Part shown: one piece after another, positions 1 to 34,413 of the stretch
Layout: every line of letters begins with the position of its first letter
Position numbering within the stretch: the stretch's first letter is position 1
Source of the DNA: a virus
Length of the DNA: 35,777 nt
Reading direction: 5' to 3' (one strand)
Virus record (IMG/VR): IMGVR_UViG_3300014914_000015
Span: 1 to 35,777 of that record
Translations under genes and position numbers: made by a program
The notes under the pieces: model-generated
Database searches by the model: none
What the model saw: the letters and a program-made list of their open reading frames with translations, nothing else
Told to the model about the DNA's origin: nothing

Positions 1-2658
1 CGTTGATGTAGACGTAGATGTACTTGAAGTCGAGGTCGTTGAACTGCTGCTCGTTGACGTTGAGGAGAACGTGCTTGTGCTTGTCGATGTAGTGCTAAAA
101 GTTGAAGTTGTCGAACTAAACGTACTGGTTGATGTTGAAGTGGTGCTGAACGTGCTTGTAGATGTGCTGGTACTGGTACTGGAACTACTCGTTGTACTAA
201 ATGTTGACGTTGATGTGCTTGAAGTGGAGAACGTGCTTGTAGATGTACTGGTACTTGAACTGGATGATGTCGATGTTGTGCTAAATGTGGATGTTGAACT
301 ACTTGAACTTGAAGTGGTGGAGAAAGTACTTGTAGAAGTTGATGTGGTTGAAAAAGTGCTTGTGGTACTTGCAGTAGAACTGGTTGTACTCGAACTGGTT
401 GTAACAAAGGTACTCGTTGTGGACATAGTAGATGTAGAACTACTTGAACTGGAACTTGTCGAACTGGTACTAAATGTTGAAGTTGTGCTGAATGTCGATG
501 TTGATGTGGATGTCGAACTAAAGGTAGAAGTAGAACTTGAACTACTGGAACTCGTAGTTGAGAAAGTGCTTGTCGAAGTAGAACTTGAACTCGTAGTGGA
601 GAACGTACTCGTAGATGTACTGGTACTGGAGCTTGAAGTAGAGAACGTACTCGTAGATGTCGAACTGCTTGTGGAACTACTTGTGGTAGAGAACGTACTT
701 GTCGAGGTACTGGTAGAACTGCTCGAAGTACTTGTGGTACTATATGTTGAAGTGCTTGTTGATGTACTGGAACTCGAAGTTGAAGTAGTACTGAAAGTGC
801 TGGTAGATGTAGAAGTACTGGAACTCGAAGTCGATGTAGTGGAGAAAGTACTTGTAGAAGTAGAAGTACTTGAACTGGATGTTGAAGTTGTGGAGAACGT
901 GCTTGTGCTTGTAGATGTACTGGAACTTGAAGTAGATGTAGTAGAGAAGGTGCTTGTGCTTGTAGATGTACTGGAGCTTGATGTACTTGAAGTAGAGAAC
1001 GTGCTTGTAGAGGTTGAAGTAGAACTGCTTGAGGTACTTGAAGTAGAGAACGTGCTTGTCGATGTACTGCTTGAAGTACTTGAAGTGGAGAACGTACTCG
1101 TAGATGTGCTGGTAGAACTACTTGAAGTGGAGAACGTACTCGTAGATGTGCTGGTAGAACTACTTGAAGTAGAGAACGTGCTTGTCGATGTACTGCTTGA
1201 AGTACTTGAAGTGGAGAACGTGCTTGTCGAGGTACTGGTAGAACTACTGGTAGTGGAGAAGGTACTTGTGCTTGTGGAAGTACTCGTACTGGATGTAGAT
1301 GTAGTAGAGAACGTACTGGTACTTGTAGATGTTGTGCTAAAAGTGCTGGTAGAAGTAGAGGTACTTGAACTTGATGTACTGGTAGTCGAGAACGTACTTG
1401 TGGATGTTGAAGTAGATGAACTCGAAGTACTGGTAGTCGAGAATGTAGAAGTACTTGTGGATGTCGAGGAGCTTGAGGTAGATGTTGTGCTAAATGTACT
1501 GGTACTGGTAGAAGTAGATGAACTCGAAGTACTGGTACTGGAGAATGTAGAAGTGCTTGTTGAGGAGCTGGTACTTGATGAACTTGTCGAACTAAAAGTA
1601 CTGGTACTTGTAGAAGTAGTGCTGAATGTCGAGGTTGAGGTAGAAGTACTTGTACTCGTTGTGGACAAAGTAGATGTTGTGCTAAATGTCGATGTAGAGC
1701 TACTTGAACTGGAACTTGTGGTAGAGAAGGTGCTTGTACTTGTCGATGTCGAGCTAAAGGTACTGGTAGAGCTTGTACTTGTCGAAGTAGTGGAGAAGGT
1801 ACTTGTCGAAGTAGTAGTGGTAGTAGTGGAAGAAGTTGTCGTTTCACCTGGGGATGTAGATGAAGTGGTACTAAATGTACTTGTCGATGAATAAGTACTG
1901 GTAGAACTGGTAGAACTGCTCGAAGTGGAGAACGTACTCGTAGATGTGCTGGTACTTGAACTTGAAGTACTTGTGGTGGAGAAGGTTGATGTTGATGTTG
2001 AAGTAGAACTGCTTGAAGTAGATGTTGTAGAGAAGGTACTTGTCGATGTTGAACTGCTTGAAGTAGTTGTAGTAGAACTACTCGAACTGGAACTTGTCGT
2101 GCTGAATGTCGATGTTGATGTGGATGAAGTGCTTGTAGATGTAGAGAAGGTGCTGGTACTTGTACTTGAACTGGTACTTGTACTTGAACTGGAACTGGAT
2201 GTTGTGCTTGAAGTGGAAAATGTACTCGTAGAAGTACTGGTACTTGAACTGGATGTTGTGCTAAAGGTGGATGTTGCCGTCGATGTAGTGGTAGAGCTAC
2301 TGGTAGTCGAGAATGTGCTGGTACTTGTACTTGAACTGGTACTTGAAGTGGAGAACGTACTCGTAGATGTGCTGGTACTTGAACTGGTAGTAGAGAAGGT
2401 ACTTGTAGATGTTGAAGTAGAACTACTTGAAGTGGAAAATGTACTGGTACTTGTAGAAGTAGAGCTACTTGAAGTGGAGAATGTGCTTGTAGACGTTGAA
2501 GTAGAACTGCTTGAAGTAGAGAAGGTACTGGTACTGGTGCTTGTCGAGGTGCTGGTACTGGAACTTGTGGTACTTGCAGTACTTGTGGTACTTGCTGTAC
2601 TTGAACTCGTGGAAATAGTTGATGTGGTTGAGAAAGTACTTGTAGTTGTGGTAGTACT
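1..2658 (-). repeat. Ser/Thr/Phe codon repeat tract
   Basis: About 886 consecutive codons encode Ser (all six codons used), Thr (all four codons used) and a periodic Phe. The DNA is an imperfect alternation of GTA/GTT/CTT/GAA-like triplets on the plus strand. Synonymous positions are scrambled, so the protein pattern is conserved better than the DNA. This argues for selection on the peptide rather than recent simple-repeat slippage, apart from local perfect duplications such as 1043-1210. Confidence 0.9.
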
Positions 2659-2880
2659 TAATCGGACTATATGTTCAACTTGGAAACATATCGAATCCCT
2701 GGGGTAAACAAAACCTATTGCCCCTTTATTAAATCTACCAAGCACATCTCTGTAAAACAGATAAACAGGCTTTACAACTACTTCAATTACTTCACCGGTA
2801 CCACGATAAATATGAACCAGCCCTTTAGTTGATCGGGCTAAAGCTCCATAAAGTAAACCTTTGGATGGTCGTAGTACCAT
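1..2880 (-). CDS. Giant Ser/Thr/Phe low-complexity virion protein (3' end outside window)
   Basis: The minus-strand frame opens at an ATG (2880-2878), directly after an in-frame TGA, and stays open to base 1, so at least 960 codons are present and the C-terminus is missing. Residues 1-74 are a small beta-rich domain with a KGLVHIYRGTGEV stretch. Its end (IGF..PRDSI) resembles the ends of the paralogous domains encoded at 15694-16203 and 14417-15691, just before their own Ser/Thr tracts. From residue 75 onward nearly every codon is Ser or Thr, with a Phe every 7-20 residues in STFST contexts and very rare Ala, Val, Ile, Met or Tyr. One break, Pro-Gly-Glu, lies near residue 344. No charged residue was seen elsewhere in the tract where I checked. 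The gene starts 4 bp after the stop of the upstream fibre gene. A virion-surface, possibly glycosylated fibre is inferred, not shown. Confidence 0.85.
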   Translation of the reverse strand, partial: MVLRPSKGLLYGALARSTKGLVHIYRGTGEVIEVVVKPVYLFYRDVLGRFNKGAIGFVYPRDSICFQVEHIVRLSTTTTTSTFSTTSTISTSSSTASTTSTASTTSSSTSTSTSTSTSTFSTSSSSTSTSTSTFSTSSSSTSTSTSTFSTSSSSTSTSTSTFSTTSSSTSTSTSTFSTSSTSSSTSTSTFSTTSSSTTTSTATSTFSTTSSSSTSTSTSTFSTSSTTSSSSSSTSTSSSTSTSTFSTSTSTSSTSTSTFSTTSSSSSSSTTTTSSSSTSTSTFSTTSTSSSSTSTSTSTFSTTSTSSSSTSTSTSTFSTSSSSTSSTSTYSSTSTFSTTSSTSPGETTTSSTTTTTTSTSTFSTTSTSTSSTSTFSSTSTSTSTFSTTSSSSSSSTSTFSTTSTLSTTSTSTSTSTSTFSTTSTSTSTFSSTSSSSTSSSTSTSTFSSTSTSSSSTSTSTSTFSTTSTSSSSTSTSTSTFSTTSTSSSSTSTSTSTFSTTSTSSSSTSTSTSTFSTTSTSTSTFSTTSTSSTSTSTSTSTFSTTSSSTSTSTSTFSTSSTSSSTSTSTFSTSSSSTSTSTSTFSTSSSSTSTSTSTFSTSSTSSSTSTSTFSTSSTSSSSTSTSTSTFSTSSTSSSSTSTSTSTFSTTSTSSSSTSTSTSTFSTTSTSSSSTSTSTSTFSTTSTSSSSTSTSTSTFSTTSTSSSSTSTSTSTYSTTSTSSSSTSTSTSTFSTTSSSTSSSTSTSTFSTSSSSTSTSTSTFSTTSSSSTSTSTFSTTSSSSSSSTSTFSSTSTSTSTFSTTSTFSTSSTSSSSSSSTSTMSTTSTFVTTSSSTTSSTASTTSTFSTTSTSTSTFSTTSSSSSSTSTFSTTSTSSSSSTSTSTSTFSTSSTSTSTFSTTSSSSTSTSTSTSTFSTTSTSTSTFSSTTSTFSTTSTSTSTFSSTSTSSSSTTSTSSTSTSTST
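1043..1210 (-). repeat. 42-bp tandem units in B-A-A-B order
   Basis: Four consecutive 42-bp (14-codon) units are seen. Units 1085-1126 and 1127-1168 are identical to each other. Units 1043-1084 and 1169-1210 are identical to each other but differ from the first pair. Each unit encodes one Phe in an STFST context. The arrangement suggests recent unequal recombination or segmental duplication inside the Ser/Thr tract. Confidence 0.85.
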
Positions 2881-2884: not shown

Positions 2885-5557
2885 TTATTGCTTTACAATC
2901 TTAATGTCATCCATTTCATCATCTGTCCAAGTGGAAGTAACAAGATAAGTTGCTATCACATTACTGTCCGTTCCAACCGATACAGCATCCGAGTACAATC
3001 GTATTCTTGCAGATGTCATTTGTTTTATTTCATTATATGTTTGGTATACAGTTTGATCCATGTGATGATTTTCTTGCATCAAACCAAGCATTCTCAAGGC
3101 TACATCGTCTGCCCATACTGCATCTGCTACGGCATCAGCAGTTACTACTTTCACGGATGTTACCTCCATCAAGTCAATATACATATTATGAGAAGCATTA
3201 TATGTGGTGGTATGGTGACGTAATCTAATCCGAACTTGATTACTATTTGTCCGGTCAATATGGCGTTCATAGTATTCATGTTGGTGTGTTCCGTCTGAAG
3301 TATTGCCTCCAGGCAAGAACTCCTCAAATAGCAACTCCCAAGTACTTGTTTCATAATTCCATGCCCATAAATCAATATGATGGGTAGCGGTAGGGTTCCC
3401 AGTATACCGTCCAAACACAGACACTACACCTGGTCTATGATCAGCACTTGGTAAGTAAAATACCATATCAGCAACTATACCATCAACAGCATCCTCTTGA
3501 ATTTGCCAATACGTTCCATCTCTACTTGCCATTGAAGCATATGTACCAGTAATTACAGTACCATCAATTGCAACACCAGAATCAGCAGAGGATTGGTCGG
3601 TGGACACTTGGGCTGCAAGGTCTGCTTTTGTAGCAAGTTCGGATCCATAAGATCCAGCAATAGCGTGGTCAGCCAATTCCTCATCCCAAACATGGTCAGC
3701 AATGAAGTCTTGGGTAATAAAACCTTCAGTATCAACATCACAGCCAGCACCTGAATTATCAGCTTCCAAGTAACCTACACCGAGTAACTGAATCTTACCT
3801 GCTACACAGGTAGAATCGATTATGATATTACCCGAGTTGCAGTTTACTACCGTTCTATCTGATCCAGTTTTGTCCTTCAACTTCAAATTACCTGTCCATT
3901 GGGATATGTTTAATGAGGCATCCCCTATCGAAAACTCTACCTCATTCGTGGGGTCTCCTCCTGCAGTACCCATGATGATCGTGGCCCATTGATCTAAACT
4001 GATTTCAGAGCCTTGGGCAAAGGATACATTGTTCATAACACCACGGAAGTTATCTAAATTTCCAATAGAGCTATCATATACCAGTGCTTCATCTCCTATT
4101 GTCATTTCACCAGACAAGTTGACATTTCTAAAGGTGGTCCCATCAGCATCACTCCCCGACTCCAATACCACATCAGTTCCCATTAGACCAATAGTTCTAA
4201 CTACTATTCCACTAATGTCATGTGCGGCTGTGACTGTTACATCAGATTGTAATACAAGGTCTTTGACTTTTCCGTAAAACATAATTAACAAAGCATCAGC
4301 TAAAACACTACTGGGTTTAAATGTAGTACCAACAGGCCACCCAGTTCCTGATACTCCATTAACTGAATCAAATAGTACCAAACCAAGTTGATATGATGCT
4401 CCCCGAAGAGCAGTAGAAGCCGAGTTCTCTATTATGTAAGTACTCAGGTCTTTATTCCAAACAGCACTGGCAATGGAATCATTAGAAATCAAGGCAGAGG
4501 TATCAACTGTGGCCGTTCCTCCTGATTGGTCAATGCATGTACCAATCCCAGAAATTATGATAGTACCAGCAGTTATTGTATTGCTAAGTACTATTGCTCC
4601 TGCATCAAGGCCTACTCCTACCTCTTGCGTTCCGTCGCTTAGATTGTTCAGGGTGGCTAGGCCTGAGTAGTTTGGCATTACGAGACTTTGACCCGAACCG
4701 CCCAAATTGATTACTGGTGGATCGTCTTGATCTACCGTGTAGCAATCGTTTAGGATTCCGTCTGCTCCACCCGACAATTCTATGTCCCCTATAAGTCCAC
4801 AATTAAATAACCTCCCATTTACATATTCCAAATCCAATACCGTACAATCAGACAAGAAGTTTTGTCCATCCAGAATCCCAGTGACAGTAGCATTTTTGAT
4901 TTCCACACCATCAGTAGTTGCAAGACCGCTGATGGTAATTAAAGTCTTGGCAGGGGATTCTCCAATGAGCGAATAGTCAGTTAGATTGAAAGATCCATCA
5001 AGGTCGGCATCACTATTAATATAGAACGTTGTGAAACCACGAAAATCTGCAATGAATAAAGCATCCGTCCAGTTGCTTGAAGGTTGAGCCGGAGTACCTG
5101 TAGGAAAGATAGACCCAGCAACAGCCCTGCCCGATGTGTTGTTTTGATCAATAGTCACACCACCATTAAAGGAGGCATATTCGATTTGGGCATTTGAAAT
5201 AAGACCGGCGGCATTGTTGATGATAAGAGACACTTGATTAGCAACTTTTACATCACCAAGATTGTGATTAGCACTTGTACAGTTGATAGTATATTGCCCA
5301 TCTTCAAATTCAACGGTATAAGGATCAAGCATTTCCACGATTCGGGCATACACTAATCCAGAAAGCTCAACTTCTGTATTGTGATCATGTGTCCTCAACA
5401 TGCACATATTATAAATCTCATTGTCCTCCAACGCCTTTAATTGCAACCGAAACCAATTAAGATCCAACTCACGTACTTCTGGGGTGGCTTGGATTAAATT
5501 TAGATCGGCTCTTGGGACAGATACAACATGTGTCATAGGATCGATTGTTATAGCCAT
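2885..5557 (-). CDS. Large modular tail-fibre-like structural protein
   Basis: 890 residues. The N-terminal 125 residues (MAITIDPMTHVVSV..., an aromatic helix, then a beta segment) look like the short virion-attachment domain common at the start of modular phage structural proteins. Two related beta-rich modules follow, at about residues 150-350 and 403-620. Each begins with a G-x-P-x(4)-PSS-x(3)-ADAL-like segment and runs through an SG-x-SP/IT region to a TAGTI..GIG-type end. Short AVW/HVW-D/N-x-x-L linkers recur near residues 366, 640 and 815, and the C-terminus (LGLMQENHHMDQ, then a helix and strands) looks like a terminal connector. A fibre or appendage is inferred from modularity and position. 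No catalytic motif was seen. It lies between the coiled-coil gene at 5563 and the Ser/Thr giant gene. Confidence 0.75.
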   Translation of the reverse strand: MAITIDPMTHVVSVPRADLNLIQATPEVRELDLNWFRLQLKALEDNEIYNMCMLRTHDHNTEVELSGLVYARIVEMLDPYTVEFEDGQYTINCTSANHNLGDVKVANQVSLIINNAAGLISNAQIEYASFNGGVTIDQNNTSGRAVAGSIFPTGTPAQPSSNWTDALFIADFRGFTTFYINSDADLDGSFNLTDYSLIGESPAKTLITISGLATTDGVEIKNATVTGILDGQNFLSDCTVLDLEYVNGRLFNCGLIGDIELSGGADGILNDCYTVDQDDPPVINLGGSGQSLVMPNYSGLATLNNLSDGTQEVGVGLDAGAIVLSNTITAGTIIISGIGTCIDQSGGTATVDTSALISNDSIASAVWNKDLSTYIIENSASTALRGASYQLGLVLFDSVNGVSGTGWPVGTTFKPSSVLADALLIMFYGKVKDLVLQSDVTVTAAHDISGIVVRTIGLMGTDVVLESGSDADGTTFRNVNLSGEMTIGDEALVYDSSIGNLDNFRGVMNNVSFAQGSEISLDQWATIIMGTAGGDPTNEVEFSIGDASLNISQWTGNLKLKDKTGSDRTVVNCNSGNIIIDSTCVAGKIQLLGVGYLEADNSGAGCDVDTEGFITQDFIADHVWDEELADHAIAGSYGSELATKADLAAQVSTDQSSADSGVAIDGTVITGTYASMASRDGTYWQIQEDAVDGIVADMVFYLPSADHRPGVVSVFGRYTGNPTATHHIDLWAWNYETSTWELLFEEFLPGGNTSDGTHQHEYYERHIDRTNSNQVRIRLRHHTTTYNASHNMYIDLMEVTSVKVVTADAVADAVWADDVALRMLGLMQENHHMDQTVYQTYNEIKQMTSARIRLYSDAVSVGTDSNVIATYLVTSTWTDDEMDDIKIVKQ

Positions 5558-5562
5558 GACTC

Positions 5563-5823
5563 CTATTCCTTATCGCCATCGGCATAAGATGTAGTTCCTC
5601 TGGCATAGAATTGTTGTTGTAAATTTGTGAGTTGAAGTCTAATTTGGTCTTGTTCCGCTTTCATGTTCATTACGTTCTTTTGCAATATATCGAACATGTT
5701 ACTAAGTTCTAAAACCATCTTGCGGGTGCTGTTTGCAAATTGGATACCTGATTCAACATTCCTTCTGATAACATCTTCCGATGCTCTAACAGCTTCCCTT
5801 TCTCCTGGCGTTACATCTCCCAT
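5563..5823 (-). CDS. Small coiled-coil protein between fibre genes
   Basis: 86 residues, strongly helical. An amphipathic stretch from about residue 20 to 72 (FANSTRKMVLELSNMFDI, then Gln/Leu-rich heptads ending LTNLQQQF) suggests a coiled coil. A GGGGGAA ribosome-binding site precedes the ATG. It sits 5 bp upstream of the 890-residue fibre gene and 10 bp after the 677-residue gene. The size and position would suit a fibre-assembly chaperone or a trimerising connector, but I do not recognise the family. Confidence 0.7.
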   Translation of the reverse strand: MGDVTPGEREAVRASEDVIRRNVESGIQFANSTRKMVLELSNMFDILQKNVMNMKAEQDQIRLQLTNLQQQFYARGTTSYADGDKE

Positions 5824-5833
5824 AATTTCCCCC

Positions 5834-7867
5834 TTATTCGTCTGAAACTAATACGGCGGTTGCGGTTAATCCTGCGGATGTGTCAATCGTACCTGTTATG
5901 ATTCCTTCCTGATAAAAAGGTTTGTCAGATATAGTATTTCTGGCCCATCCGCTTACAGGTTGGGCAGTAATATAAATTCTTGAAGTAGCAACTATTCCAT
6001 CAGCATCACTTAAACCAAACAATGCTACAAACGTTGCTGTGATTGTGCCAGTTGGGGATGATCCGGGTGTGCTTAACATTGTGTAACTATAACTACTGGT
6101 GCTAATATAGGTGATCTGATACACTCCTTCATTTGCATCTAAACTACCACCTTCAATGTACACATAATCACTTGAGCCCATACCATGCCCGGTATGAGTA
6201 ACCGTAGCAGTTGTGCCACTATTTACTATAGTTACTGTATCCTCTGCTGGAAAGGCTCCTCCTACCCGATAGTCTTCATCACCGTCTGGGAAAGCATCTG
6301 AAGAAAGAGACAATGAGGTTTCCGAATCTACGGCAGTAACGGTTGCTGAAGTACCATCAGTTTGATTGAATGCTACATCATCGACCTCCACACCATCAGT
6401 CTCAAAAGTGGCATCGGTATCAACCAGCTTACTTGCTGTATCCGTTGTTGCGGTTCCAGATGATTTTGGATCTGCTGCGACATATACTCTAATGTCCTCA
6501 AGTTCTGTTCCATCTGTTTTAACACAAGTAACCTCTACTGGTACAGCTCCAGCAATAACGTTCACCGTAGCTCCAGCCGATCTTACATGGTAATCTAACG
6601 TAACTCCTGATCCACCGGAAACTGTTAGGTTGACTGTTCCAGTAGCTATGTTTACATAGATTGCTTTGTTAGCAGCAGTACCAGGATTTGCAATATCATA
6701 TCCTGTAAAAACACAATCGGTAAGGGTTAAATCGGCAGCAGTTCCTCCTATCTCCAATCCATGACCAGTTCCACCACTTATAAAAATAGAATCTGTTATC
6801 AAGGCAGCGTTGGCAGGTGACGATACAATCACAGCTTTTGTGGAATCACTTGTATCATCAAATGTACAACCGTCAACATCTGCTCCACCAGTAGTCACTA
6901 ATCCACACCTTCTAAATATAGTAGCAGTTAGCGCACTATTTGATTGGAATATAAAGGTGCCCAGGTCTGTAAACTGGCAAGAGTCAAAATCAATTGGAGC
7001 ATCTGCAACCGCTTCAAATTGACCTGGAGATACAGTACATAAACTGACTATATTTATATTTGACCATTCGATATTTGAACTGGTATTGTTTACTTCAATT
7101 TTGTTAAAAGTTGATTGCACCCTTCTTGTGTTATCAACAACTATATTTCTATTAGAATCCCTAAAGTCAACTAAGGTGGCAGCACTACCTAAGGACATTA
7201 AACCTTTCCAAATATAACTACCACTTTGTGATGAGAACAAACCCCACTTATTGTTTGTACTATCATTTTCAGTAGCCATGCCATCAAAAGTAGCATAGTT
7301 AGCAGCCTCACCATAGGTTACTTCCAGTTCCCCCCTTCCATACCTGATAACATCGATACCGTAGGGCGAGCCTTTCGATATAGCAGAGATGACTTTACAA
7401 AGCATACCAACCCACCGATAATTAGTTCCGGGTGTGCCTGTAGTAGTACGACCAGTTGTAACCTCAGGATCAACTACAAAGTTTTGCCATCCACCATAAG
7501 GATAACGACCAAAATCATTACCACCAACTGTCCATCTGTGAAAAGCTGAAATAGCTGATCCAATAGCCATTTCTATACCGCCATTAGCATCAGAATCTAC
7601 AGCAGCAGGAGCCAAAAATATTCCCCACAGAAAGATACTCCAACCACTTGTCCATGTTATGTTTGAGCCATAGTCAGAAGCAAGGGAACCAGTTGCAGCA
7701 GTTCTTTGTTCCGCAGAAGCATGTTGAGTTCCCTGAATAGGAAAATCTTCATCTTGATCCTCTCCCTTAGCTGTAGCGGTATAGCCAACCATTTCTGTAG
7801 AAATAGTACTGGCAGCTTCAAAATCTTCAAAGTCAGCTAAATCAGTATTGTATGCGGGAACAGTCAT
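5834..7867 (-). CDS. Beta-helix-containing virion/tailspike-like protein
   Basis: 677 residues. Residues about 1-240 form an aromatic-rich beta region. Residues about 250-430 show the short-strand pattern of a right-handed beta-helix (repeats like FDSCQFTD, VDGCTFDD, LTDSIFISGG, LTDCVFTG), as in tailspikes and pectate-lyase-like folds. Residues about 470-610 hold two small beta-barrel-like modules (one with GVEVDDVAFNQTDGTSA and a following AVDS-x-T-SLSL stretch), and the C-terminus is a further strand-rich domain. No hydrolase active site can be identified by eye. A GGAGAAGAGG ribosome-binding site precedes the ATG. It is probably a host-range or surface-binding virion protein, from architecture and neighbours. 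Confidence 0.72.
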   Translation of the reverse strand: MTVPAYNTDLADFEDFEAASTISTEMVGYTATAKGEDQDEDFPIQGTQHASAEQRTAATGSLASDYGSNITWTSGWSIFLWGIFLAPAAVDSDANGGIEMAIGSAISAFHRWTVGGNDFGRYPYGGWQNFVVDPEVTTGRTTTGTPGTNYRWVGMLCKVISAISKGSPYGIDVIRYGRGELEVTYGEAANYATFDGMATENDSTNNKWGLFSSQSGSYIWKGLMSLGSAATLVDFRDSNRNIVVDNTRRVQSTFNKIEVNNTSSNIEWSNINIVSLCTVSPGQFEAVADAPIDFDSCQFTDLGTFIFQSNSALTATIFRRCGLVTTGGADVDGCTFDDTSDSTKAVIVSSPANAALITDSIFISGGTGHGLEIGGTAADLTLTDCVFTGYDIANPGTAANKAIYVNIATGTVNLTVSGGSGVTLDYHVRSAGATVNVIAGAVPVEVTCVKTDGTELEDIRVYVAADPKSSGTATTDTASKLVDTDATFETDGVEVDDVAFNQTDGTSATVTAVDSETSLSLSSDAFPDGDEDYRVGGAFPAEDTVTIVNSGTTATVTHTGHGMGSSDYVYIEGGSLDANEGVYQITYISTSSYSYTMLSTPGSSPTGTITATFVALFGLSDADGIVATSRIYITAQPVSGWARNTISDKPFYQEGIITGTIDTSAGLTATAVLVSDE

Positions 7868-7899
7868 TTCCTCTTCTCCGATACTAAGTATGTTTCATG

Positions 7900-7949
7900 C
7901 TTAATCTTACCGCCCATGCTAATTGAACATGGGCGGTATTTTGATTAAG
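7900..7949 (-). terminator. Strong stem-loop after the 840-residue structural gene
   Basis: A perfect 11-bp stem (7908-7918 with 7928-7938, loop CTAATTGAA) is enclosed by a second 7-bp stem (7900-7906 with 7943-7949). It covers the stop codon of the upstream gene (TAA at 7947-7945). On the minus (transcribed) strand no U-run follows, while TTTT follows the inner stem on the plus strand. It may be an RNA-processing or 3'-stabilising hairpin, or a weak terminator separating fibre genes. Confidence 0.45.
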
Positions 7950-10467
7950 TGTCACTTGTTCTGGTAATACCATGTGTTGCATTGGAGTTTGTAAACGTAT
8001 GACGTTTTTTATCCTCTTTGATTGGTGTACCATCACCATCTCGTACAACCACTGTTAGATTCAAATCAACATCGTAGACAGCAGCAAAGGTTTCACTTGC
8101 TAATGCAGCCGCCTTGTCAATATAGCTTATATAAGCACCGCTTCCGATACTTACCTGCTCCGTTAAACCATCACCGGAGAAATCTGCACTGGTAATTGTG
8201 AAGATATCAGTGGCATCAACATATAATGAATAGGGATGGCGGATATGAAAGCCATCATCATTGACAATACGCATTGTTCCACTATCAGGAGTTGAACCTG
8301 GAATGGCATTCACTTCAACGGACGTAACTGCACCACCAGTAAGAGCAGTCGTTACAACATGCATCTGATAAACAAAGCAGTAATTACCTATTGCTACGGA
8401 ATCATTTACTCCAGAACCAGAGAAGTCGTGTGATGTAATAGTGAATGTATTTGGACCTGTTGCATATCCTGAATATACATGATCTACAACAAGACCTTCA
8501 TCATTAACAATTGATATATAACCAGAAGTTGGTAGCCAAGTATCAATGTCAGTTTCAGAAAGGTCTTGATCAACAGTAACGGTTACTTCTGCACCAGTGG
8601 TCAAAGCCGTTGCAATCGTAAAATATGCAGCGCCAACAGTTGGATCACCGTTGATGTCAGTCGTGAATCCATCAGTTGCAACAACCAATATCTGATCATT
8701 GGTAGTACTTAGACCAGAGTAGGTATTTGTAACTGACAACGGTGGTGAGATCGGAGTGGTCTCACCAAGTGGAACAACCTTATCAGTTGCACTCAATACC
8801 CCTGGATCATTATCAACACCGACACCATGGGCACCAATGAGTGCAGTTCCAGTAGAGACACCGATATAAGGTGCTGTTCTTGAAAGTGAATATTCGGTAA
8901 TGGTATCAACTTCATTGGCAACCAGCAGATAATCAGTATGATCCGCCGCCCCCAAAGAGGTTCCAGCATAGTACAATACATCATCATCACCTGGCATGAG
9001 ACCTTTGAGAACTTGCACATACAGAATATCATTGGTATCATCGTTTGCCAGAACATGAAGCACACCACCATTGGTAACTTCCGTTGGATCAGAAGTTGTT
9101 TCGGCATCTGCACCGGAAGTTATTCCCCAAAATTGGGTAGTATTTCCGATGGTTCCAGAATCAATGTAAACCACCATGGAATCTTCACTTGTATCAATCG
9201 ACAATATAGTGGCATAAAAAGTGGGTGGGGTTCCACCAGATGGGTCTGCATCAACGATTACTTCACCTACAGCAAAAGAGCCCGTTGGCACATCATGGTC
9301 GATGTATGTTCCCCAGACAAGCATATCATAATCACTTACTACAATTGCACCGGCTTCACCATCATAACCACAAGAGTGTGTTACACCCCTAAGAACCTCA
9401 CCGTCCAACCCATGTACGGTATAATCAGTTCCAGTACCGTTATGATCTGCGGTTTCACCCATGGCCCTTTGGAACAAGTCATTGATATCATGGGAACCTG
9501 TCCAAGTCAGCTTGCCGAAGTAGTCCTCATCGTTTCCATCATCATCAACATCAAACTGTTGGAAACCTAAATCTTCACCGGAAAACTCCGAATCCCATGT
9601 AGTACCGATAACTGTTTGAGGGGAAGTATCGAAATTAAGATCCTGTGAATCAGAAAGAGCAAGAACGTTGTTTCCACGAGATGTACCATTGATTGGGAAC
9701 CATGCAAACGTGTTACCCAACCTGCGGCACATACCAACGAGGCGTCTACCATCGATATCAGCACCGTTTTCTCTCACTTTAATCATAAACCTATGAGAAA
9801 TACCCTGTCCTGAATCTGGGTTAAGCGGTACACCAAGCAAGTAAGTATCGGCTGAGGTGTTGTAATTGTTTGTTCCACCAGTGAGTTCAGTTGTCGATCT
9901 AAACGTAACCTGATCATTTGTATTTGAAAGAGCAATACCTTTACACAGATCGGTTGTGTTTAATATCGTGTAACCAAGGAGGGTTAATCCAGTAAAGCCA
10001 CCCGTATCATCCAGATATTCTCCCGTTCCATCTGTGGAGTCACAAGCTGCACCGTAGTTGTAATTCCAATAATCATTTGTAACAAGGGCTCCGTCTTGGA
10101 TCATCTGGATCTGAACATTTGCACTACCAAAGTTTACAATACCATCCCAAATATCGTCACCACCATATTGAATAATACTACCATCGTAAAGATGCTCGAT
10201 AGCAGTAGCATCAACATTAAATCCATTAACAAGAGTGATGATGTTGTCAGTGGATCTATCCGATGCTTTCGGAATTGGAATGTACATCTTGTCACTTATG
10301 TTTGCAGGGGCCTGGTCATCGGACAACTGACCCAACCATCTATGCAGTTGGATAACCGTAGCATACGATGGGGAGGCTCCGTTGTGACCATTCCCGATGT
10401 ATCGTATGTTTCCAGTTATGTTGTCCACAGTCCAGTCTGCCGGGACTAAACTATAAGTTATAGCCAT
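7945..10467 (-). CDS. Large structural protein, probable virion fibre or appendage
   Basis: 840 residues with an AAAGGAGAAAG ribosome-binding site just before the ATG. It is Asp/Gly/Thr-rich and almost entirely beta-predicted, with no signal peptide. Two tandem 55-residue repeats are visible near the C-terminus, about residues 648-702 and 729-783, sharing an S-G-x-x-x-IVNDxG start and FTITS-x-DFSG-x-G core. The first half (YIGNGHNG..., IPIPKAS, DGSIIQYGGDDIWDGI) looks like a beta-solenoid or jelly-roll virion domain. A glycine/asparagine-rich adhesive appendage is inferred from composition and from its place at the head of the fibre block. I do not recognise a named family. Confidence 0.7.
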   Translation of the reverse strand: MAITYSLVPADWTVDNITGNIRYIGNGHNGASPSYATVIQLHRWLGQLSDDQAPANISDKMYIPIPKASDRSTDNIITLVNGFNVDATAIEHLYDGSIIQYGGDDIWDGIVNFGSANVQIQMIQDGALVTNDYWNYNYGAACDSTDGTGEYLDDTGGFTGLTLLGYTILNTTDLCKGIALSNTNDQVTFRSTTELTGGTNNYNTSADTYLLGVPLNPDSGQGISHRFMIKVRENGADIDGRRLVGMCRRLGNTFAWFPINGTSRGNNVLALSDSQDLNFDTSPQTVIGTTWDSEFSGEDLGFQQFDVDDDGNDEDYFGKLTWTGSHDINDLFQRAMGETADHNGTGTDYTVHGLDGEVLRGVTHSCGYDGEAGAIVVSDYDMLVWGTYIDHDVPTGSFAVGEVIVDADPSGGTPPTFYATILSIDTSEDSMVVYIDSGTIGNTTQFWGITSGADAETTSDPTEVTNGGVLHVLANDDTNDILYVQVLKGLMPGDDDVLYYAGTSLGAADHTDYLLVANEVDTITEYSLSRTAPYIGVSTGTALIGAHGVGVDNDPGVLSATDKVVPLGETTPISPPLSVTNTYSGLSTTNDQILVVATDGFTTDINGDPTVGAAYFTIATALTTGAEVTVTVDQDLSETDIDTWLPTSGYISIVNDEGLVVDHVYSGYATGPNTFTITSHDFSGSGVNDSVAIGNYCFVYQMHVVTTALTGGAVTSVEVNAIPGSTPDSGTMRIVNDDGFHIRHPYSLYVDATDIFTITSADFSGDGLTEQVSIGSGAYISYIDKAAALASETFAAVYDVDLNLTVVVRDGDGTPIKEDKKRHTFTNSNATHGITRTSDT

Positions 10468-14417: not shown

Positions 14418-15691
14418 TATGAAGATTCTCCTTGTATATAAACATCCAAAGAACCTGACGAACTTTGACTCATTACCAAGTCTGTTGAAAAAGGTGGATC
14501 ACTTGTATTATATCCAGCGTAGCCTGATGAAAGTCTTCCAGGTATTAATCCTTCTGTATTAGTAGAATGAGTATAGAAAATAAGCCCGGTGGATGCAGTC
14601 ACAGCAAATGGTGTGAAGTCTATTCCTGATGTCAAAGTGATCCACCCAGTTGATAAGCCGCCCACATCAATAACTTCAGTATAGCTATCAAAAGTAAAAG
14701 TTGTCCCTGAGAATGTCCCTTTCCAAATTCTAAGCCTGCCACCTGCTGTATTGTTGTATATTTGTATTTGATGGACAGTACCAGCAGCAGAAAACAATTC
14801 AGGAGTACTGGATCCTGAATAAGCTGTGTAAATATACCCACTTGGTGTTTGACTGTTATTGCTTCCATTACCTGATGCATAATCCATATCTAATACGGGC
14901 GGGCTTGTCGTTGTAGTGGTGCTGAAAGTACTTGTCGATGTCGATGTGGAACTCAGCGTTGAACTACTTGATGTGGTCGAACTAAAAGTTGATGTGGTAC
15001 TGAATGTACTTGTCGAACTCATTGTACTTGAAGTTGTACTGAACGTACTTGTGGTACTGAACGTACTGGTTGAACTCATTGTACTTGATGTTGTACTAAA
15101 AGTACTGGTTGAACTCATTGTACTGGTAGAACTCGTACTGGTAGAACTCGTACTAAACGTACTTGTAGTACTAAACGTACTTGTAGTACTTGCTGTACTT
15201 GAGGTCGTTGTGCTTGAACTGGTTGTTGTAGTAGACGAAGTGGAATAGCTCGAACTATCACGAACAGATATATGGAGATCAATGGTATCTGTATCAGTAG
15301 CATATCCAATCGGCTGATAAAACCAATCGGGTTTAGTTTGAGTAAAAGTACCTGCAACACTATCAGATAACCAAACAACTTTTCTTGGTGTCAAGGACCA
15401 ACTGGCTACAGTAATAATCCCTTTCCTACGAACTCTAATTTCATCATCTAAAATACCCCCTTCAGTAGCAACACCTAAACAAGGTTGCTGTGTCCCATCT
15501 GCTAATGCTTTATACCACTTAGAATCACTATCGATATAAAGACCATCTCCTTCAACAACAGTCTCACCAAGAGTTGCTAACATGACAGATTGTATAATAT
15601 CATCCAGGAATTCAATGTTTTCTTTCAGTTTACGGTTCCACCCTGTGGTTCCATAATCAACATGTATTAACTCGTAGATAGAAGTTGGCAT
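14417..15691 (-). CDS. Accessory virion protein: beta domain, Ser/Thr/Phe linker, jelly-roll-like C-domain
   Basis: 424 residues in three parts. Residues about 1-145 are paralogous to the product of the next gene upstream, at 15694-16203 (shared ATLGE..EGD/E-L-Y, YKALAD, VWLSD, TQTKP and IG..DT-I/L-D motifs). Residues about 146-263 are a Ser/Thr-only linker with TFSTTS and TMSST motifs. Residues about 264-424 form a beta-rich domain (GYIYTAYSGSS..., FTPFAVTASTGLIFYTH) like a carbohydrate-binding jelly roll. The gene has no recognisable ribosome-binding site: it follows the upstream Ser/Thr tail by TAATT then ATG, so reinitiation is likely. It lies between tail tip and lysis genes, so it is probably an accessory appendage of the tail tip. 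Confidence 0.7.
   Translation of the reverse strand: MPTSIYELIHVDYGTTGWNRKLKENIEFLDDIIQSVMLATLGETVVEGDGLYIDSDSKWYKALADGTQQPCLGVATEGGILDDEIRVRRKGIITVASWSLTPRKVVWLSDSVAGTFTQTKPDWFYQPIGYATDTDTIDLHISVRDSSSYSTSSTTTTSSSTTTSSTASTTSTFSTTSTFSTSSTSTSSTSTMSSTSTFSTTSSTMSSTSTFSTTSTFSTTSSTMSSTSTFSTTSTFSSTTSSSSTLSSTSTSTSTFSTTTTTSPPVLDMDYASGNGSNNSQTPSGYIYTAYSGSSTPELFSAAGTVHQIQIYNNTAGGRLRIWKGTFSGTTFTFDSYTEVIDVGGLSTGWITLTSGIDFTPFAVTASTGLIFYTHSTNTEGLIPGRLSSGYAGYNTSDPPFSTDLVMSQSSSGSLDVYIQGESS
14903..15258 (-). repeat. Internal Ser/Thr/Phe linker tract
   Basis: About 118 codons of Ser/Thr with recurring STSTFSTTS and SSTMSSTSTF phrases. It has the same composition and Phe spacing style as the tract at 1-2658, but with Met appearing in several copies. 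It joins two folded domains, which shows the tracts can act as linkers as well as tails. Confidence 0.85.
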
Positions 15692-15693: not shown

Positions 15694-16203
15694 TTATACC
15701 GTTGTGGTTGTTGTAGTAGTTGTTGTTGAACTGGTTGTTGTAGTTGATGTCGTTGTTCCATACGAAGCAATATTACCTATTTGTATTCTTATATCTAAAG
15801 TATCTGGTCCTATAGCAATTCCTATCAATTGCTCTGTACTTGGTTTAGTTTGAGTCAAAGCCCCTCGGGTAATATCTGATAACCAAACACCAGTTCCTGA
15901 AGTAAAAGACCACCCTGTGACTTGCATAACCCCGTCTCTTTGCATTCGGATAACTTCTCCAGAATTACCATCCTCAATTGCAAGTCCTAAAGAAGGCATC
16001 CTTCTATTGTCAGCTAAAGCCTTATAGTAAAAACCATCAGTTTGAAGGTAAAGGGCTTCTCCTTCATCTACATCCTCTCCTAAAGTGACTAATGCCCAAG
16101 TGTCTACCACTTCATCAAGAACTTCCATTGCAGATTTATATATGGCATTCCACCCTGCTGCGGTGTAGTCAGCCGTTTCCATATCGTATTTTGGTGTAGC
16201 CAT
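15694..16203 (-). CDS. Accessory virion protein: beta domain with Ser/Thr tail
   Basis: 169 residues. Residues 1-148 form the same beta-rich domain as the following gene (MPSLGLAIEDGNSG, GVWLSDITRGALTQTKPS, IGIAIGPDTLDIRIQIG). The last 20 residues are almost only Thr and Ser. It starts 3 bp after the second tail-tip gene. The pair of paralogs directly after the tip genes suggests proteins displayed on the tail tip. The domain family is not recognised by name. Confidence 0.72.
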   Translation of the reverse strand: MATPKYDMETADYTAAGWNAIYKSAMEVLDEVVDTWALVTLGEDVDEGEALYLQTDGFYYKALADNRRMPSLGLAIEDGNSGEVIRMQRDGVMQVTGWSFTSGTGVWLSDITRGALTQTKPSTEQLIGIAIGPDTLDIRIQIGNIASYGTTTSTTTTSSTTTTTTTTTV

Positions 16204-20600: not shown

Positions 20601-21043
20601 GATCTATCCTTTAATCTAAAGACAAACCTTTTTCGCTTTTGCCACTTTCTATTTAACCAGGGCATATCAGTAACCCCCATTCCATACAAAGAATGATGCA
20701 CTGTTCCCTTTAGATATATTCCTGTATGTGCAATTGATTTACCAACTTTATACATTATAATATCACCATCTTTAGGGTTGTTGAAATCCCCATTCTCAAC
20801 ACCAAGATTTATGGTACCATCAACTAATACATCATCTTTGGTATGTAGGAAATACCAATCTGAATGGGCTGGAATCAAAATTCTATTCCTCGCTCCACTA
20901 TCTACCAACACCCCTGCCACATAATTTGAACAATCAGCTCCTCGGTGCTTAATACGGGCATTAAGCATCCAGGGGGTTCCTTGCCAACCTTTAATAGCTT
21001 GGGACAGTTTATCTATATTTTCTGGTTTATCGAAATAGAACAT
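20597..21043 (-). CDS. Tail-tip NlpC/P60 cell-wall peptidase
   Basis: 148 residues from the ATG at 21043, which overlaps the upstream stop as TAATG. A GTG 9 bp further upstream gives a longer form but lacks suitable spacing. The catalytic Cys38 is in HRGADCSNYVAG and the His106 is in IAHTGIYL, followed by a second His pair, as in the NlpC/P60 family. In GTA and phiJL001-type tails this gene sits in the same place, after the DUF2163 hub, and cuts peptidoglycan peptides during DNA entry. The local gene order supports the same role. Confidence 0.83.
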   Translation of the reverse strand: MFYFDKPENIDKLSQAIKGWQGTPWMLNARIKHRGADCSNYVAGVLVDSGARNRILIPAHSDWYFLHTKDDVLVDGTINLGVENGDFNNPKDGDIIMYKVGKSIAHTGIYLKGTVHHSLYGMGVTDMPWLNRKWQKRKRFVFRLKDRS

Positions 21044-21873: not shown

Positions 21874-21875
21874 AA

Positions 21876-22514
21876 TTATGCCGTTGTCGTTGTAGTGGAA
21901 GTATATTCGTTTGGTAACTCAACAAAATACAACTTTGTAGATGCTACCTCTGGAGAAGAATACATCCATTCAATTGTTTCTAAATCTAATCTTCCCATAT
22001 ACAAAAAGCTGATGAACTTTACCTGAGATTTAGGTATATTCCTCCCTAAAGCACTATCAATATTAATTTTGGTTGCTGTGTACCCTGTTAATCTACGAGC
22101 AAACCATATGCTATCATTTACATAAATAAACAAGTATCTACCAGTACCTCTCCCTGGTGGATAAAAAACACTGTAATTTTCAGTTGTCAGAACATCAATG
22201 GTAGTATCTGTAGAAGCAATATCCCCATTTATCTTGAAATCAGCGATCCAACTTGGGAACCATATATTCTCAATTCTTCCTTTGAGTGAATCAAACAGGC
22301 CATTAACCACTGAAATATCTTCTTTACCAACAAAATTGTATATGAAATTTGTACTGTAGTTTGGGAAGTTAGACAAAGGTTCGGAGTAAGTGTATCCAAA
22401 AGTAGTACCAATTATATCAGTCCTGTTCCTACTTAGTTTACCTGGGGATTCTTCCCAAATAGGACCAACATGAAAAACAGGTTTGTATCTATAGTCAGTA
22501 AAAGAAAGGGTCAT
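21876..22514 (-). CDS. Minor/distal tail protein with short Ser/Thr tail
   Basis: 212 residues. It has beta-rich halves with GLFDSLKGRIENIWFPSW, which resembles the start of DUF2460-like distal tail proteins, and a small inserted strand module (STDTTIDVLTTENY ... IWFARRL). The C-terminus ends in a Thr tail of about eight residues. It sits in the position of the GTA gp12-like protein (after tape measure, before the DUF2163 hub). The start overlaps the previous stop (ATGA). Confidence 0.65.
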   Translation of the reverse strand: MTLSFTDYRYKPVFHVGPIWEESPGKLSRNRTDIIGTTFGYTYSEPLSNFPNYSTNFIYNFVGKEDISVVNGLFDSLKGRIENIWFPSWIADFKINGDIASTDTTIDVLTTENYSVFYPPGRGTGRYLFIYVNDSIWFARRLTGYTATKINIDSALGRNIPKSQVKFISFLYMGRLDLETIEWMYSSPEVASTKLYFVELPNEYTSTTTTTA

Positions 22515-26613: not shown

Positions 26614-26616
26614 ATG

Positions 26617-27347: not shown

Positions 27348-27358
27348 GATCAATCTCC

Positions 27359-28018
27359 TTATGACGTGGTTGTAGTAGTAGAGGTACTTGTGCTACCTGT
27401 ACCATCATCCCATAGTACTCTTCCGAGCGGTTGGGCATCCCAAATAGTATGCCCATTTGTGGTTCCTCCTGCTTCATTAATCCAGGAAGTTGCACCATCA
27501 GCCCTCTTTGACTCAAGGGTAATGGAAACAGCCGCGGGTTCCTCCGAAGCAAAGTCAAGCTCAAGACTTGCAACTACCTGGCACCTCGGAAACACAATAG
27601 TCATGGTATTTACACCATCTGGGTAAGTATAAATAGCTTCCATTCTGACAGACAACGGGGCAGCAATGGAACCCAACCCAATATTACCTAAGTGCTCATC
27701 GGCATAACCACCTGCAGTAGGATCAAGTCCTCTTGCAAGGGCAAGGTTGTAAGGGGTTATTTCCTTGAATCCACACTCAAGGGAACATCCTTCTCTCAGT
27801 GGAAACACAGCATCCTCCAACATCGGGAAACCAGATTCCAGTTTGAAAACTTCTACGGTAGACATAAACTTGGTATCAGCCAAAGCACCAATTGATGCAG
27901 CCAAACCTAATATCGGTCGAATCTGACCAATATAAGTCTCACATGTACCAATTCGAATTTGAGCCAAACCAAGGGCTACAGTTGAACTATCTTTTGTAAT
28001 AGGACCTGTTCTCGCCAT
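27359..28018 (-). CDS. Major tail tube protein with short Ser/Thr tail
   Basis: 219 residues. The pattern (IGTCETYIGQIR, KFMSTVEVFKLESGFPMLEDAV, EAIYTYPDGVNTMTIVFPRCQV) fits a siphovirus tail tube protein, and the gene precedes the chaperone and tape measure genes. A near-perfect extended ribosome-binding site (AAAGGAGGTGA, 28033-28023) predicts high expression. The last dozen residues are a Ser/Thr tail. The tube polymerises into the tail channel, so a C-terminal tail would be repeated along the tail surface. Confidence 0.8.
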   Translation of the reverse strand: MARTGPITKDSSTVALGLAQIRIGTCETYIGQIRPILGLAASIGALADTKFMSTVEVFKLESGFPMLEDAVFPLREGCSLECGFKEITPYNLALARGLDPTAGGYADEHLGNIGLGSIAAPLSVRMEAIYTYPDGVNTMTIVFPRCQVVASLELDFASEEPAAVSITLESKRADGATSWINEAGGTTNGHTIWDAQPLGRVLWDDGTGSTSTSTTTTTS

Positions 28019-28034
28019 AGTATCACCTCCTTTA

Positions 28035-28994: not shown

Positions 28995-29539
28995 CGCCAT
29001 TTACCTCTTATCCTTAATAGAGAGCGCATACCTTGTTTTGGAAGATATGCTTTCTTGTACTGCAAAGCAGTTGGTCTGAACAATGGTCTGGCAGGTACTT
29101 TGCTATTACCATATTCATTGACACGGGCATATAAAGCTATTTGAGTAGGAGCACCCGAACCTGACCAATTTTTACCACCTGAGTCATAAATACCACCGGG
29201 AACTCCCGCCATCCAAGAAACCCCACCTTTTCTCCCACTGGGGTCCATGCTTGTAAGAGCGGCTGACTTTCTAAAGAATCTGATATTATTAGCAAGGTCT
29301 CCTCTTAATCTCCAATATATCAAAGGGTAGCCCATCTTAATTTTCCATTTACGATAGGCCTTACTATAAGATTGATATAGAAAAGACTGCTTGTTTATAT
29401 TTCCAATAAGAAGGTTCCGTGCTTCAATGGCACAACTGCGGGGAAGGTTATTTTGCTGGCGGAATATCTCTTTTACGGTACGAGATATTGCCATCCTAAC
29501 CTTTCTGAGGTCACTACCATCAATTACAGCATAAATCAT
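28991..29539 (-). CDS. HK97 gp10-like neck/tail completion protein
   Basis: 182 residues, basic. The C-terminal motif VNEYGNSKVPARPLFRPTAL followed by a helix is the hallmark of HK97 gp10-type head-tail joining proteins. The start codon overlaps the previous stop (ATATGA), and no ribosome-binding site is present because the preceding sequence encodes a Ser/Thr tail; coupling is expected. Confidence 0.75.
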   Translation of the reverse strand: MIYAVIDGSDLRKVRMAISRTVKEIFRQQNNLPRSCAIEARNLLIGNINKQSFLYQSYSKAYRKWKIKMGYPLIYWRLRGDLANNIRFFRKSAALTSMDPSGRKGGVSWMAGVPGGIYDSGGKNWSGSGAPTQIALYARVNEYGNSKVPARPLFRPTALQYKKAYLPKQGMRSLLRIRGKWR

Positions 29540-30291
29540 ATCGTTGTAGTTGTAGTGGTAGTTGATGAACTTGTGGAGGTCGAGTTGGTTGAACTGGTTG
29601 AAGCCGTTGTACTACTGGTTGTCGTTGTACTGGTTGTTGTAGTAGTACTGGTTGTTGTAGTAGTAGAGAATGAAGCCCTGTTATCTTCTCCTAACTCAAG
29701 GACATCCATTCCATCATAACGTCTAGGTTTGACAGTTTCTACACGATAATAAACAGATTCAGAAAGGACGATTCTATCAAGGGGCTGTACTCCCCAAGAA
29801 GTGGGAACATACATCTCATGCATTTCCAAGCCCAATAAAGCTAATTCCTCATCTGTTTCAAGAGAGTGCCCATATAAAGGTGCTGTTATTAATGCTCTGG
29901 CACTTTCTTTGATATAACTCCACGTGGTAGCCCTATGATAATTTTGAGGATCATAATTAGGGTTCGTAGGCCGCCTAATATCACAAACTACATTGGTTTT
30001 ATAAAGAACAGCTTGGTATCTCCATATTTCATTCTCAAGCATATCCGGAGACTTATTCATCACAAAATGATAAGATCCGGGAACTACTAATAAAATGGTA
30101 TCACCAACAACTGCTACAGAATCATAAGATAACCAACATTCAGTAAAAAACTCACGGATAAAAGGCTTTGTAACCTGAGCGTTACTGGCATACAAGGTGT
30201 TCTCTCCAGTAACGTTTCCTGCATCTCGTATTATCGTATAGGCCTGCCCTACTTCGGCAAGAACTTCTTTTATATCAAGACCTATTGACAT
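29536..30291 (-). CDS. Head closure-like protein with 43-residue Ser/Thr tail
   Basis: 251 residues. Residues 1-208 have a connector pattern with WGVQPLDRIVLSESVYYRVE and MDVLELGEDNRASF at the end, as in head-closure (stopper) proteins. The final 43 residues are Ser/Thr with a few Ala and one Asn. The tail DNA runs directly into the start of the next gene, which therefore lacks a ribosome-binding site. Confidence 0.65.
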   Translation of the reverse strand: MSIGLDIKEVLAEVGQAYTIIRDAGNVTGENTLYASNAQVTKPFIREFFTECWLSYDSVAVVGDTILLVVPGSYHFVMNKSPDMLENEIWRYQAVLYKTNVVCDIRRPTNPNYDPQNYHRATTWSYIKESARALITAPLYGHSLETDEELALLGLEMHEMYVPTSWGVQPLDRIVLSESVYYRVETVKPRRYDGMDVLELGEDNRASFSTTTTTSTTTTTSTTTTSSTTASTSSTNSTSTSSSTTTTTTTI

Positions 30292-31033: not shown

Positions 31034-31066
31034 GGATTTTCACTCCCATTATTGACACAACCGCTA

Positions 31067-32383
31067 TTAAGCAGTAGTTGTGGTAGTAGTCGAAGACGAA
31101 GTTGTGGTTGTGGACGTTGCGGATGCTGCTGCTGTAGTAGCAACCTCGATAGAATAAATAGCATCACGATGATACAGAATGGGCAGGCCCTTATCCCGTA
31201 CTCGGATAAAGATACCTTCCGGGTCCCATTCTTCATGCTTGTCTGTTTGCAGACCATACTGACGGCCTAAACCAAACGGAGCTTGTTTGTACTCTGCGAT
31301 TGCTTCACCGTCTATAGAAGTAGACATGAAAACAATCTTGTTATCCGGCACAAAGTATTTCCGCATGGCAACAGAATCGAGACCAGCTTTGTATGAATTG
31401 TCCGTCGGGTATTCAATCTGTAACTGGTTGGTAAATGTATCAACCGAGAGAATAACACGATCCTCATAGGCACCTGTGGTATTGTTATGAATGCGAACAG
31501 TCTCAAAAGCTGTGAAATCAGAAGCATCCTGAACAGAAACCCAGGTACTCGAACCACCGGAAAGAGTACTGGTTATCCAGCTTTTAATTTCATACATCTC
31601 ATCATAAACAGCTATATTGGGAATGTCGAGCAAACGAGCAATAACATTGGCATTGGCTTCAACGAAATCATTTCCACCACCACTACCAAACAGATTACCC
31701 TCTCCAAACATGTTCTTTTGGAGAAGCTCTCGGATGGTGTCATCGTCTGCCAGCATAGCAAGGACAGTAGAATTACAGATGGCATAATTGATTTTGCCAC
31801 CGCAATCTTCTTTCACCTTTCTTTTGGCATCACGAATATCACCAATAATGTTGGCGGCCGTTTCACCCCAACGAGCATTACCTGCTAAGGTAACACGGTG
31901 ATCCGAAGGAATCTGATAATCAACAGAAGACATATAACCACCTTTTCGCATGTAGTTAAAGCCATTGTTGAAGATCATTTGAGCAAACATCCACTCTTTC
32001 CTGCGGTTTGAACGATTAACAAGTCCGGCTAATTCTCTTGCCAGACGAGTTTTCGAATCCAGGTACTCGCCTTCTGTACCTTCTTTGCGGAGATTGTTCA
32101 AAAACTCCTCATCGAAGTACATTTTCTCTTTCCAATAGGCGGCCTCCGCGATATGTTGTGCTATACCGAACGGTGCCGTTCTCGGAGATGGAGAGCCCGG
32201 GGCGACAAACGGTGTCATACCACGCCCACCCCTCATGCTTTCCCACTTAACAGTACTGGACGGGGAAGGAGAAGAACCGAACAAGTTCATCAGCATAAGG
32301 TCCGGAGGTGACATGAATTGCGTTATAAAGTTTTGGAGAACTTCTAATCGAAGCTCAGGTATATCAGCTTTTCCTCTTGGCAT
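31067..32383 (-). CDS. Major capsid protein (lambda gpE-like) with insertion domain and Ser/Thr tail
   Basis: 438 residues. Residues 1-270 follow the gpE-like pattern (FMSPPDLMLMNLFG, HIAEAAYWKEKMYFDEEFL, NRSNRRKEWMFAQMI, LLDIPNIAVYDEMYE), and KYFVPDNKIVFM and a final REDGI-like strand (DPEGIFIRVRDKGLPIL) complete the fold. Between DEMYE and KYFVPD lies an extra beta module of about 75 residues (WVSVQDASDFTAFETVRIH ...). The C-terminus is a 19-residue Ser/Thr tail. An extended AAAGGAGGTGA ribosome-binding site predicts strong expression. It assembles the head shell with the decoration protein. Confidence 0.88.
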   Translation of the reverse strand: MPRGKADIPELRLEVLQNFITQFMSPPDLMLMNLFGSSPSPSSTVKWESMRGGRGMTPFVAPGSPSPRTAPFGIAQHIAEAAYWKEKMYFDEEFLNNLRKEGTEGEYLDSKTRLARELAGLVNRSNRRKEWMFAQMIFNNGFNYMRKGGYMSSVDYQIPSDHRVTLAGNARWGETAANIIGDIRDAKRKVKEDCGGKINYAICNSTVLAMLADDDTIRELLQKNMFGEGNLFGSGGGNDFVEANANVIARLLDIPNIAVYDEMYEIKSWITSTLSGGSSTWVSVQDASDFTAFETVRIHNNTTGAYEDRVILSVDTFTNQLQIEYPTDNSYKAGLDSVAMRKYFVPDNKIVFMSTSIDGEAIAEYKQAPFGLGRQYGLQTDKHEEWDPEGIFIRVRDKGLPILYHRDAIYSIEVATTAAASATSTTTTSSSTTTTTTA

Positions 32384-32400
32384 ACTCTCTCACCTCCTTT

Positions 32401-33102: not shown

Positions 33103-33117
33103 ATTACCTCACCTCCT

Positions 33118-34335: not shown

Positions 34336-34363
34336 CTTACTTTCTCCTATTAGAGGTTATAAT

Positions 34364-34413
34364 AGCAAGGAGGGCTAAACGGATGGACTGGGCACCCGTC
34401 TGCCCTCCTTGCT
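34364..34413 (-). terminator. 12-bp perfect stem between portal and protease genes
   Basis: AGCAAGGAGGGC (34364-34375) pairs with GCCCTCCTTGCT (34402-34413) around a 26-nt loop. It lies in the 100-bp gap after the portal stop and before the protease start. No U-run follows on the transcribed strand (ATTATAACC). It may be a partial terminator or an RNA processing or stability element that sets the ratio of portal to protease and capsid. Confidence 0.45.

Follow-up and report, generated by a model that had tools for sequence, protein, structure and literature searches.

A minus-strand gene at one end of the 35,777 bp IMG/VR virus record that was analysed here in its entirety (referred to below as the window) probably encodes a virion stalk resembling mucins and the serine-rich-repeat proteins (SRRPs) of bacteria, O-glycosylated by phage-encoded enzymes, a reading to which we assign a probability of about two in three. 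In the proposed arrangement, a small head domain would anchor the stalk to the particle, enzymes of the phage would O-glycosylate a long serine/threonine (S/T) chain that is interrupted every 10–17 positions by a hydrophobic or aromatic residue, and binding to the host, or to what surrounds it, would fall to a C-terminal domain lying beyond the end of the contig. The capsid, connector, tail-tube and cement-like proteins carry short S/T tails that may act as further acceptors, such that glycans would be spread over the whole particle. The odds seem to us even on the broader proposal that these acceptors and the stalk together form a mucin coat over the entire virion, modified by a dedicated phage cassette of glycosyltransferases, methyltransferases and, in some cases, sulfotransferases. 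From gene order we infer that the proteins bearing tracts and tails are on the virion surface, and the action of the cassette enzymes on the tracts, the chemistry of the glycans and the presence of a cassette in the window phage are likewise presumed.

At least 177 contigs from the environment belong to the lineage, which among those examined is mostly tailed (that is, with structural proteins ending in S/T tails) and presents sequence signs of coat-wide O-glycosylation with stalks of up to 1195 residues. If the proposal is correct, these bacterial viruses would bear a self-contained glycocalyx, and possible roles of a phage glycocalyx in shielding, in adhesion to mucus or polysaccharide and in host choice would become testable. 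It would also provide a source of bacterial O-glycosylation enzymes whose acceptor motif is simple and repeated, and would account for a class of low-complexity proteins that is readily dismissed as artefact.

The tract and selection on its peptide

The tract gene (1..2880, minus strand) is open from an ATG at position 2880 to base 1, giving 960 codons without a stop, as the original prediction had stated, and its 3′ end is open where the contig breaks inside the tract. The first 74 residues (2659..2880, minus strand) form an orphan head domain with no homologue in viral_contigs, Pfam, PHROGs or the fetched loci. The remaining 886 (residues 75–960; 1..2658, minus strand) are made up of 461 Ser, 357 Thr, 55 Phe and only 13 others (four Ala, two Tyr and one each of Ile, Pro, Gly, Glu, Leu, Met and Val), so the nearly pure Ser/Thr/Phe tract that had been described after the head is indeed present. 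Phe does recur through the tract, although its spacing ranges more widely than the 7–20 residues first claimed, from 6 to 37, with modes at 14 and 17 (14 occurrences each) followed by 10 (eight occurrences). All 55 Phe residues are preceded by T-S-T and 54 are followed by Ser, the module reading S-T-F-S-T/S-T/S-S, and an IUPAC motif of the tract has 26 matches in the window versus 0.00 in shuffles. Adjoining the tract gene are proteins of 890, 840 and 677 aa (2885-10467, minus strand), for which Pfam gave no match and the fetched loci no homologue.

Relatives were found with a degenerate DNA pattern of the tract, searched in viral contigs, and by a capsid profile search that gave 177 uncultivated relatives, 80 of which were kept for analysis. 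Three assemblies of one 87.8-kb virus (G001–G003) carry a complete analogue of 1651 aa, in which a tract of 1195 residues (316–1510) is closed by a C-terminal domain and Tyr (84) is used largely in place of Phe (14). The same virus encodes a second tract protein of 1056 aa with two tracts, and a further virus of 67 kb, G004, encodes more S/T tracts. The capsid, connector and tail-tube proteins of the window are 55–65 % identical to those of G004 and 52–59 % identical to those of G001, and all of them are tailed. A heptad (3.5-residue) periodicity considered for the Phe spacings of 10, 14 and 17 was dropped because spacing in G001 is mostly even (6, 8, 10 and 14), being set by the number of ST dipeptides. 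The original prediction had turned on there being homologous tracts in related phages; these were looked for, and the relatives carry them.

Across 61 tracts from 33 sources a common module, S-T-X-S-T-T-S, is found, in which X is Y, F, A, L, H, I or V according to lineage and the flanking positions are S at −2 (87 %), T at −1 (93 %), S at +1 (83 %), T at +2 (82 %), T at +3 (89 %) and S at +4 (80 %), a trend that persists when the window and G001 are left out. Within the window tract there is also an island, SPGETTTSSTTTT (1807..1863, minus strand), whose common form TTTTTEPGETxTSSTTTT is present in two copies in G001 and three in G004. Its retention with different codons in the window, G001 and G004 suggests that the tracts of these three viruses share descent. 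One locus, L085, contains poly-Ser open frames with periodic Ile, Leu or Val (SSSSSSISSSSSSS), which may be a non-coding frame.

Among the cultured phages of INPHARED there was no DNA match to the window (positions 17619-35777 tested) and no tblastn match for the GT4 glycosyltransferase of the relatives or for the tail-tube protein, and the lineage therefore appears to be uncultivated; capsid matches to cultured phages reach only 25–27 %, to Gordonia and other phages. A scan of bacterial and archaeal genomes for the S/T-F/Y pattern returned mostly short T-rich runs and nothing comparable to the long S/T tract with its regularly placed F or Y.

Judged from its codons, selection on the tract is at the level of the peptide, since synonymous differences far outnumber non-synonymous ones and an exact repeat of 71 residues has diverged codons. 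When units of the same length are anchored at the aromatic residue, the codon pairs that differ do so synonymously in 2027 cases and non-synonymously in 356, which upholds the earlier contention that codons are scrambled while the peptide pattern is selected; a single mutation placed at random in the tract would be synonymous in only 28 % of cases and would leave S/T or F/Y in 60 %. The 71-residue peptide occurs twice in the window tract with a codon identity of 32 %, versus 26 % by random synonymous choice, and the longest exact peptide repeat in G001 extends over 106 residues (codon identity 48 % versus 37 % expected). Shuffling the order of S and T leaves no repeated peptide longer than 22 aa, and so the order of Ser versus Thr is maintained and not hydroxyls alone. 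The tract DNA contains 37 repeated exact 40-mers, versus none in a synonymous shuffle, from which it follows that the tract grew by duplication and then drifted synonymously to near saturation. Active scrambling of codons against recombination was ruled out by this same excess of exact repeats. The tract genes are identical in G001–G003 and population pN/pS is thus uninformative.

S/T tails as a set across structural proteins

The original prediction envisaged a single surface fibre, and while the tract behind it is real, the S/T feature is genome-wide and not the property of one fibre. The major capsid protein (MCP; 31070..32383, minus strand, as are all the genes in this paragraph) matches the Pfam major capsid protein E family (Phage_cap_E) at 114 bits, above the gathering cut-off of 22.9, and a PHROG major head protein at 1.5e-41, and it ends in an S/T tail at 31073-31117. 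A candidate head-tail connector of 251 aa (29539..30291), placed by gene order, has a 44-aa S/T tail (29542-29673), and the probable major tail (tail-tube) protein of 219 aa (27362..28018), placed by synteny as the second gene before the tape measure, has one of 11 aa (27362-27394). A tail assembly protein of 212 aa (21879..22514) ends YTSTTTTTTA. A protein of 424 aa (14420..15691) has an S/T/F linker (aa 146–263; 14903..15256) between a cement-like N-domain and a C-terminal domain, and its cement-like paralogue of 169 aa (15697..16203) has a C-terminal S/T tail (15700-15756). The tandem cement-like domains of these two proteins are 43 % identical, and their folded domain is weakly like Phage_cement_2 and PHROG 4368 (tail-fibre and cement proteins), the 169-aa protein scoring 19 bits against Phage_cement_2, below the Pfam gathering cut-off of 24; unlike those families, the two proteins are fused to, or end in, S/T tracts. 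The tail module also contains a 993-aa tail protein (17619-20600) with many DUF285 (WDVSNVTNM) repeats of bacterial-surface type.

MCP tails are present in 65 rows of the comparison (window included) and absent in 15, with one row cut off. Connector tails track them closely: among rows in which both proteins are readable, 50 of 51 tailed MCPs are accompanied by a tailed connector and 12 of 12 tailless MCPs by a tailless one, and the lone mismatch is a truncated ORF; tail-tube proteins agree with the MCP state in 33 tailed cases and one tailless case. S/T runs of at least 15 residues on the coding strand are found in 53 of the 65 tailed loci versus none of the 15 tailless loci (185 kb). On the MCP tree the tailed rows form one deep clade and tail state changes a single time, so that the co-occurrence of tails and cassette counts as roughly one independent event; treating joint tail presence as many independent events was rejected on this ground. 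In two of three protein pairs the tail endings are more alike within than between genomes, and in two of three pairs the codon identity of the tails is near the between-genome level, with some excess in the connector/tail-tube pair. Such likeness of tail peptides without a matching likeness of codons fits a shared, trans-acting factor that reads the peptide better than it fits copying of DNA.

It has to be asked whether the tracts are simply unmodified, disordered polar spacers that hold folded domains together, perhaps aided by aromatic ‘stickers’, and whether the tails are no more than flexible leftovers. We think this unlikely. Tracts do connect folded domains, both in the 424-aa protein and in loci L171 and L172, where the domains are of the F5/8 type C and kelch types (an arrangement that would also suit a stalk displaying domains that bind carbohydrate), and F and Y swap between lineages. 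Yet the tracts contain hardly any of the residues usual in linkers (G, P, N, D, E and K), the order of S versus T is kept over 71–106 residues though codons are near-saturated, and a glycan cassette adjoins the tract genes, while tails at protein ends tether nothing and are gained or lost together.

An ordered, self-assembling β-fibre of stacked S/T strands with an aromatic ladder, which might bind polysaccharide or ice, is in our estimate quite improbable, even though the S/T residues around X keep a fixed pattern and AlphaFold2, given the head and 126 tract residues, predicts regular strands of 10–11 residues centred on each Phe (STSTSTFSTSS; pLDDT 60–76 there). AlphaFold2 is prone to false β-solenoids on repeats (PMC11795689), the overall pLDDT of the tract model is 54 and a PDB fold search with it gave no significant match; the spacing of the repeats is irregular (6–37), moreover, and Ala or His may stand at X. 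The earlier suggestion of self-assembly thus gains no real support from strands that are a known artefact on repeats. The model of the 424-aa protein, with a pLDDT of 39, was unusable.

Sugar-enzyme genes beside the tracts

For the O-glycosylated stalk that we prefer, candidate enzymes are encoded next to the tract genes of the relatives. Directly downstream of these genes in G001 and G004 are genes for GT4 and GT1-like glycosyltransferases, methyltransferases, further glycosyltransferases including GT2, and Sulfotransfer_2, the 1651-aa tract gene of G001 coming after the cassette. Seven of the G001 cassette proteins pair to six G004 genes at 28–52 % identity. The GT2 (PF00535), sulfotransferase (PF03567), radical SAM, Methyltransf_24 and G001 GT4 domains pass the Pfam cut-off, and several other cassette matches score under the curated cut-off. 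The radical SAM gene (PF04055, 4.5e-19) is found in G004 between GT4 and a GT2-like gene (L051:10237-11214, minus strand).

A GT4 profile identified 21 loci, 15 of them with S/T runs of at least 15 residues, and in those the last run is mostly 0.1–2.4 kb upstream of GT4; the core five-gene set GT4 / GT1-like / methyltransferase / glycosyltransferase / GT2 recurs in several of the GT4 loci. Sulfotransferases are detected by Pfam in two of 25 records. Among records of at least 24 kb, GT4 is present in nine of 12 that are tailed and none of six that are tailless, numbers that reflect shared ancestry, tail state being one change. The long tailed records from which it is absent are G019, G023 and G025, and it is present in G018 (the record of L095), which is among the nearer relatives of the window on the MCP tree. 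No glycosyltransferase was found among the window ORFs scanned, and the contig stops before the expected cassette site, so a cassette in the window phage is an extrapolation from relatives. The search for adjacent glycosyltransferase genes that had been proposed was accordingly positive in the relatives and gave none in the window, which ends before that region.

The GT2-family gene carried by the tailless relatives G008, G010, G011, G013, G014 and G015 is a different one, which in some of these viruses follows the capsid gene about 4 kb downstream, and glycosyltransferases as such are therefore not exclusive to tailed phages; this GT2 possibly belongs to a separate glycosylation system. Its presence could be taken to mean that the cassette modifies host surface glycans, as a block to superinfection, or phage DNA, with its location explained by late-gene organisation, and modification of DNA and of host antigens is a known activity of phage glycosyltransferases, as discussed in PMC12619734. 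We give such targets only a small chance, as GT4 is limited to tailed viruses in the sample and directly follows S/T genes in a diverse set of loci; in two of these, L173 and L174, the gene just upstream of it encodes a cement-like homologue with an S/T tail.

Simple-repeat expansion or an assembly artefact without protein function, for which one could cite the duplication history visible as excess exact repeats and the contig break in the tract, is already largely refuted and extremely improbable, given that codons are scrambled while the peptide is invariant, that the 1651-aa gene of G001 is identical in three assemblies, that the S/T/F linker of the 424-aa gene is protein-identical in contig L005 (99.87 % identical to the window) and that tracts of this kind recur in many diverged viruses.

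Comparison with known glycosylated systems

Animal mucins and viral mucin-like domains combine a dense Ser/Thr content suited to O-glycans with an extended stalk. The proposed glycosylated stalk differs from these in its near lack of Pro, in the absence of a eukaryotic secretory pathway and in its conserved S-T-X-S-T-T-S order, and homology is not indicated; the likeness to mucins and serine-rich-repeat proteins drawn in the original prediction holds up as an analogy. Among CC-licensed papers on poly-Thr, Thr-rich or mucin-like phage proteins, there was no report of such tracts.

SRRPs, such as Fap1, PsrP and the L. reuteri SRRP, have a long O-glycosylated S/T repeat and are encoded beside 2–10 glycosyltransferase genes (PMC6973325). 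The tracts described here are similarly long and S/T-rich, Ser alternates with a lineage-variable residue in the SRRP repeat, and in G001, G004 and other relatives glycosyltransferase genes cluster with the tract gene, the window contig ending inside its tract. SRRPs are, however, Gram-positive cell-surface adhesins with accessory Sec and GtfA/GtfB, whereas the tract genes are in a phage structural module, their S/T tracts have regularly spaced F or Y, and capsid and tail proteins are tailed as well. A GtfA/GtfB pair with DUF1975 was not found, Pfam and NCBIfam scans of the cassette giving generic glycosyltransferase families only, and there was no accessory SecA2/SecY2 or cell-wall anchor among the cassette genes scanned. 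Because there is no DUF1975 GtfA/GtfB or accessory Sec near the cassette, the tract system is not considered to be an SRRP.

The ICTV 2025 profile names carbohydrate in tailed-phage virions for certain mycobacterial phages only. In mycobacteriophage virions, glycans are found at the C-termini of capsid and tail-tube proteins and are linked to phage glycosyltransferases (PMC12619734, PMC11256854 and PMC12451611, citing Freeman et al. 2023). The same kinds of protein, capsid and tail-tube, have C-terminal S/T tails in the sequences here, and phage-encoded glycosyltransferases are likewise present in the relatives, with none in the window itself. Unlike the mycobacteriophages, the present lineage, apparently an uncultivated one, has extended S/T tails, tracts of hundreds of residues, and methyltransferases and sulfotransferases in its cassette.
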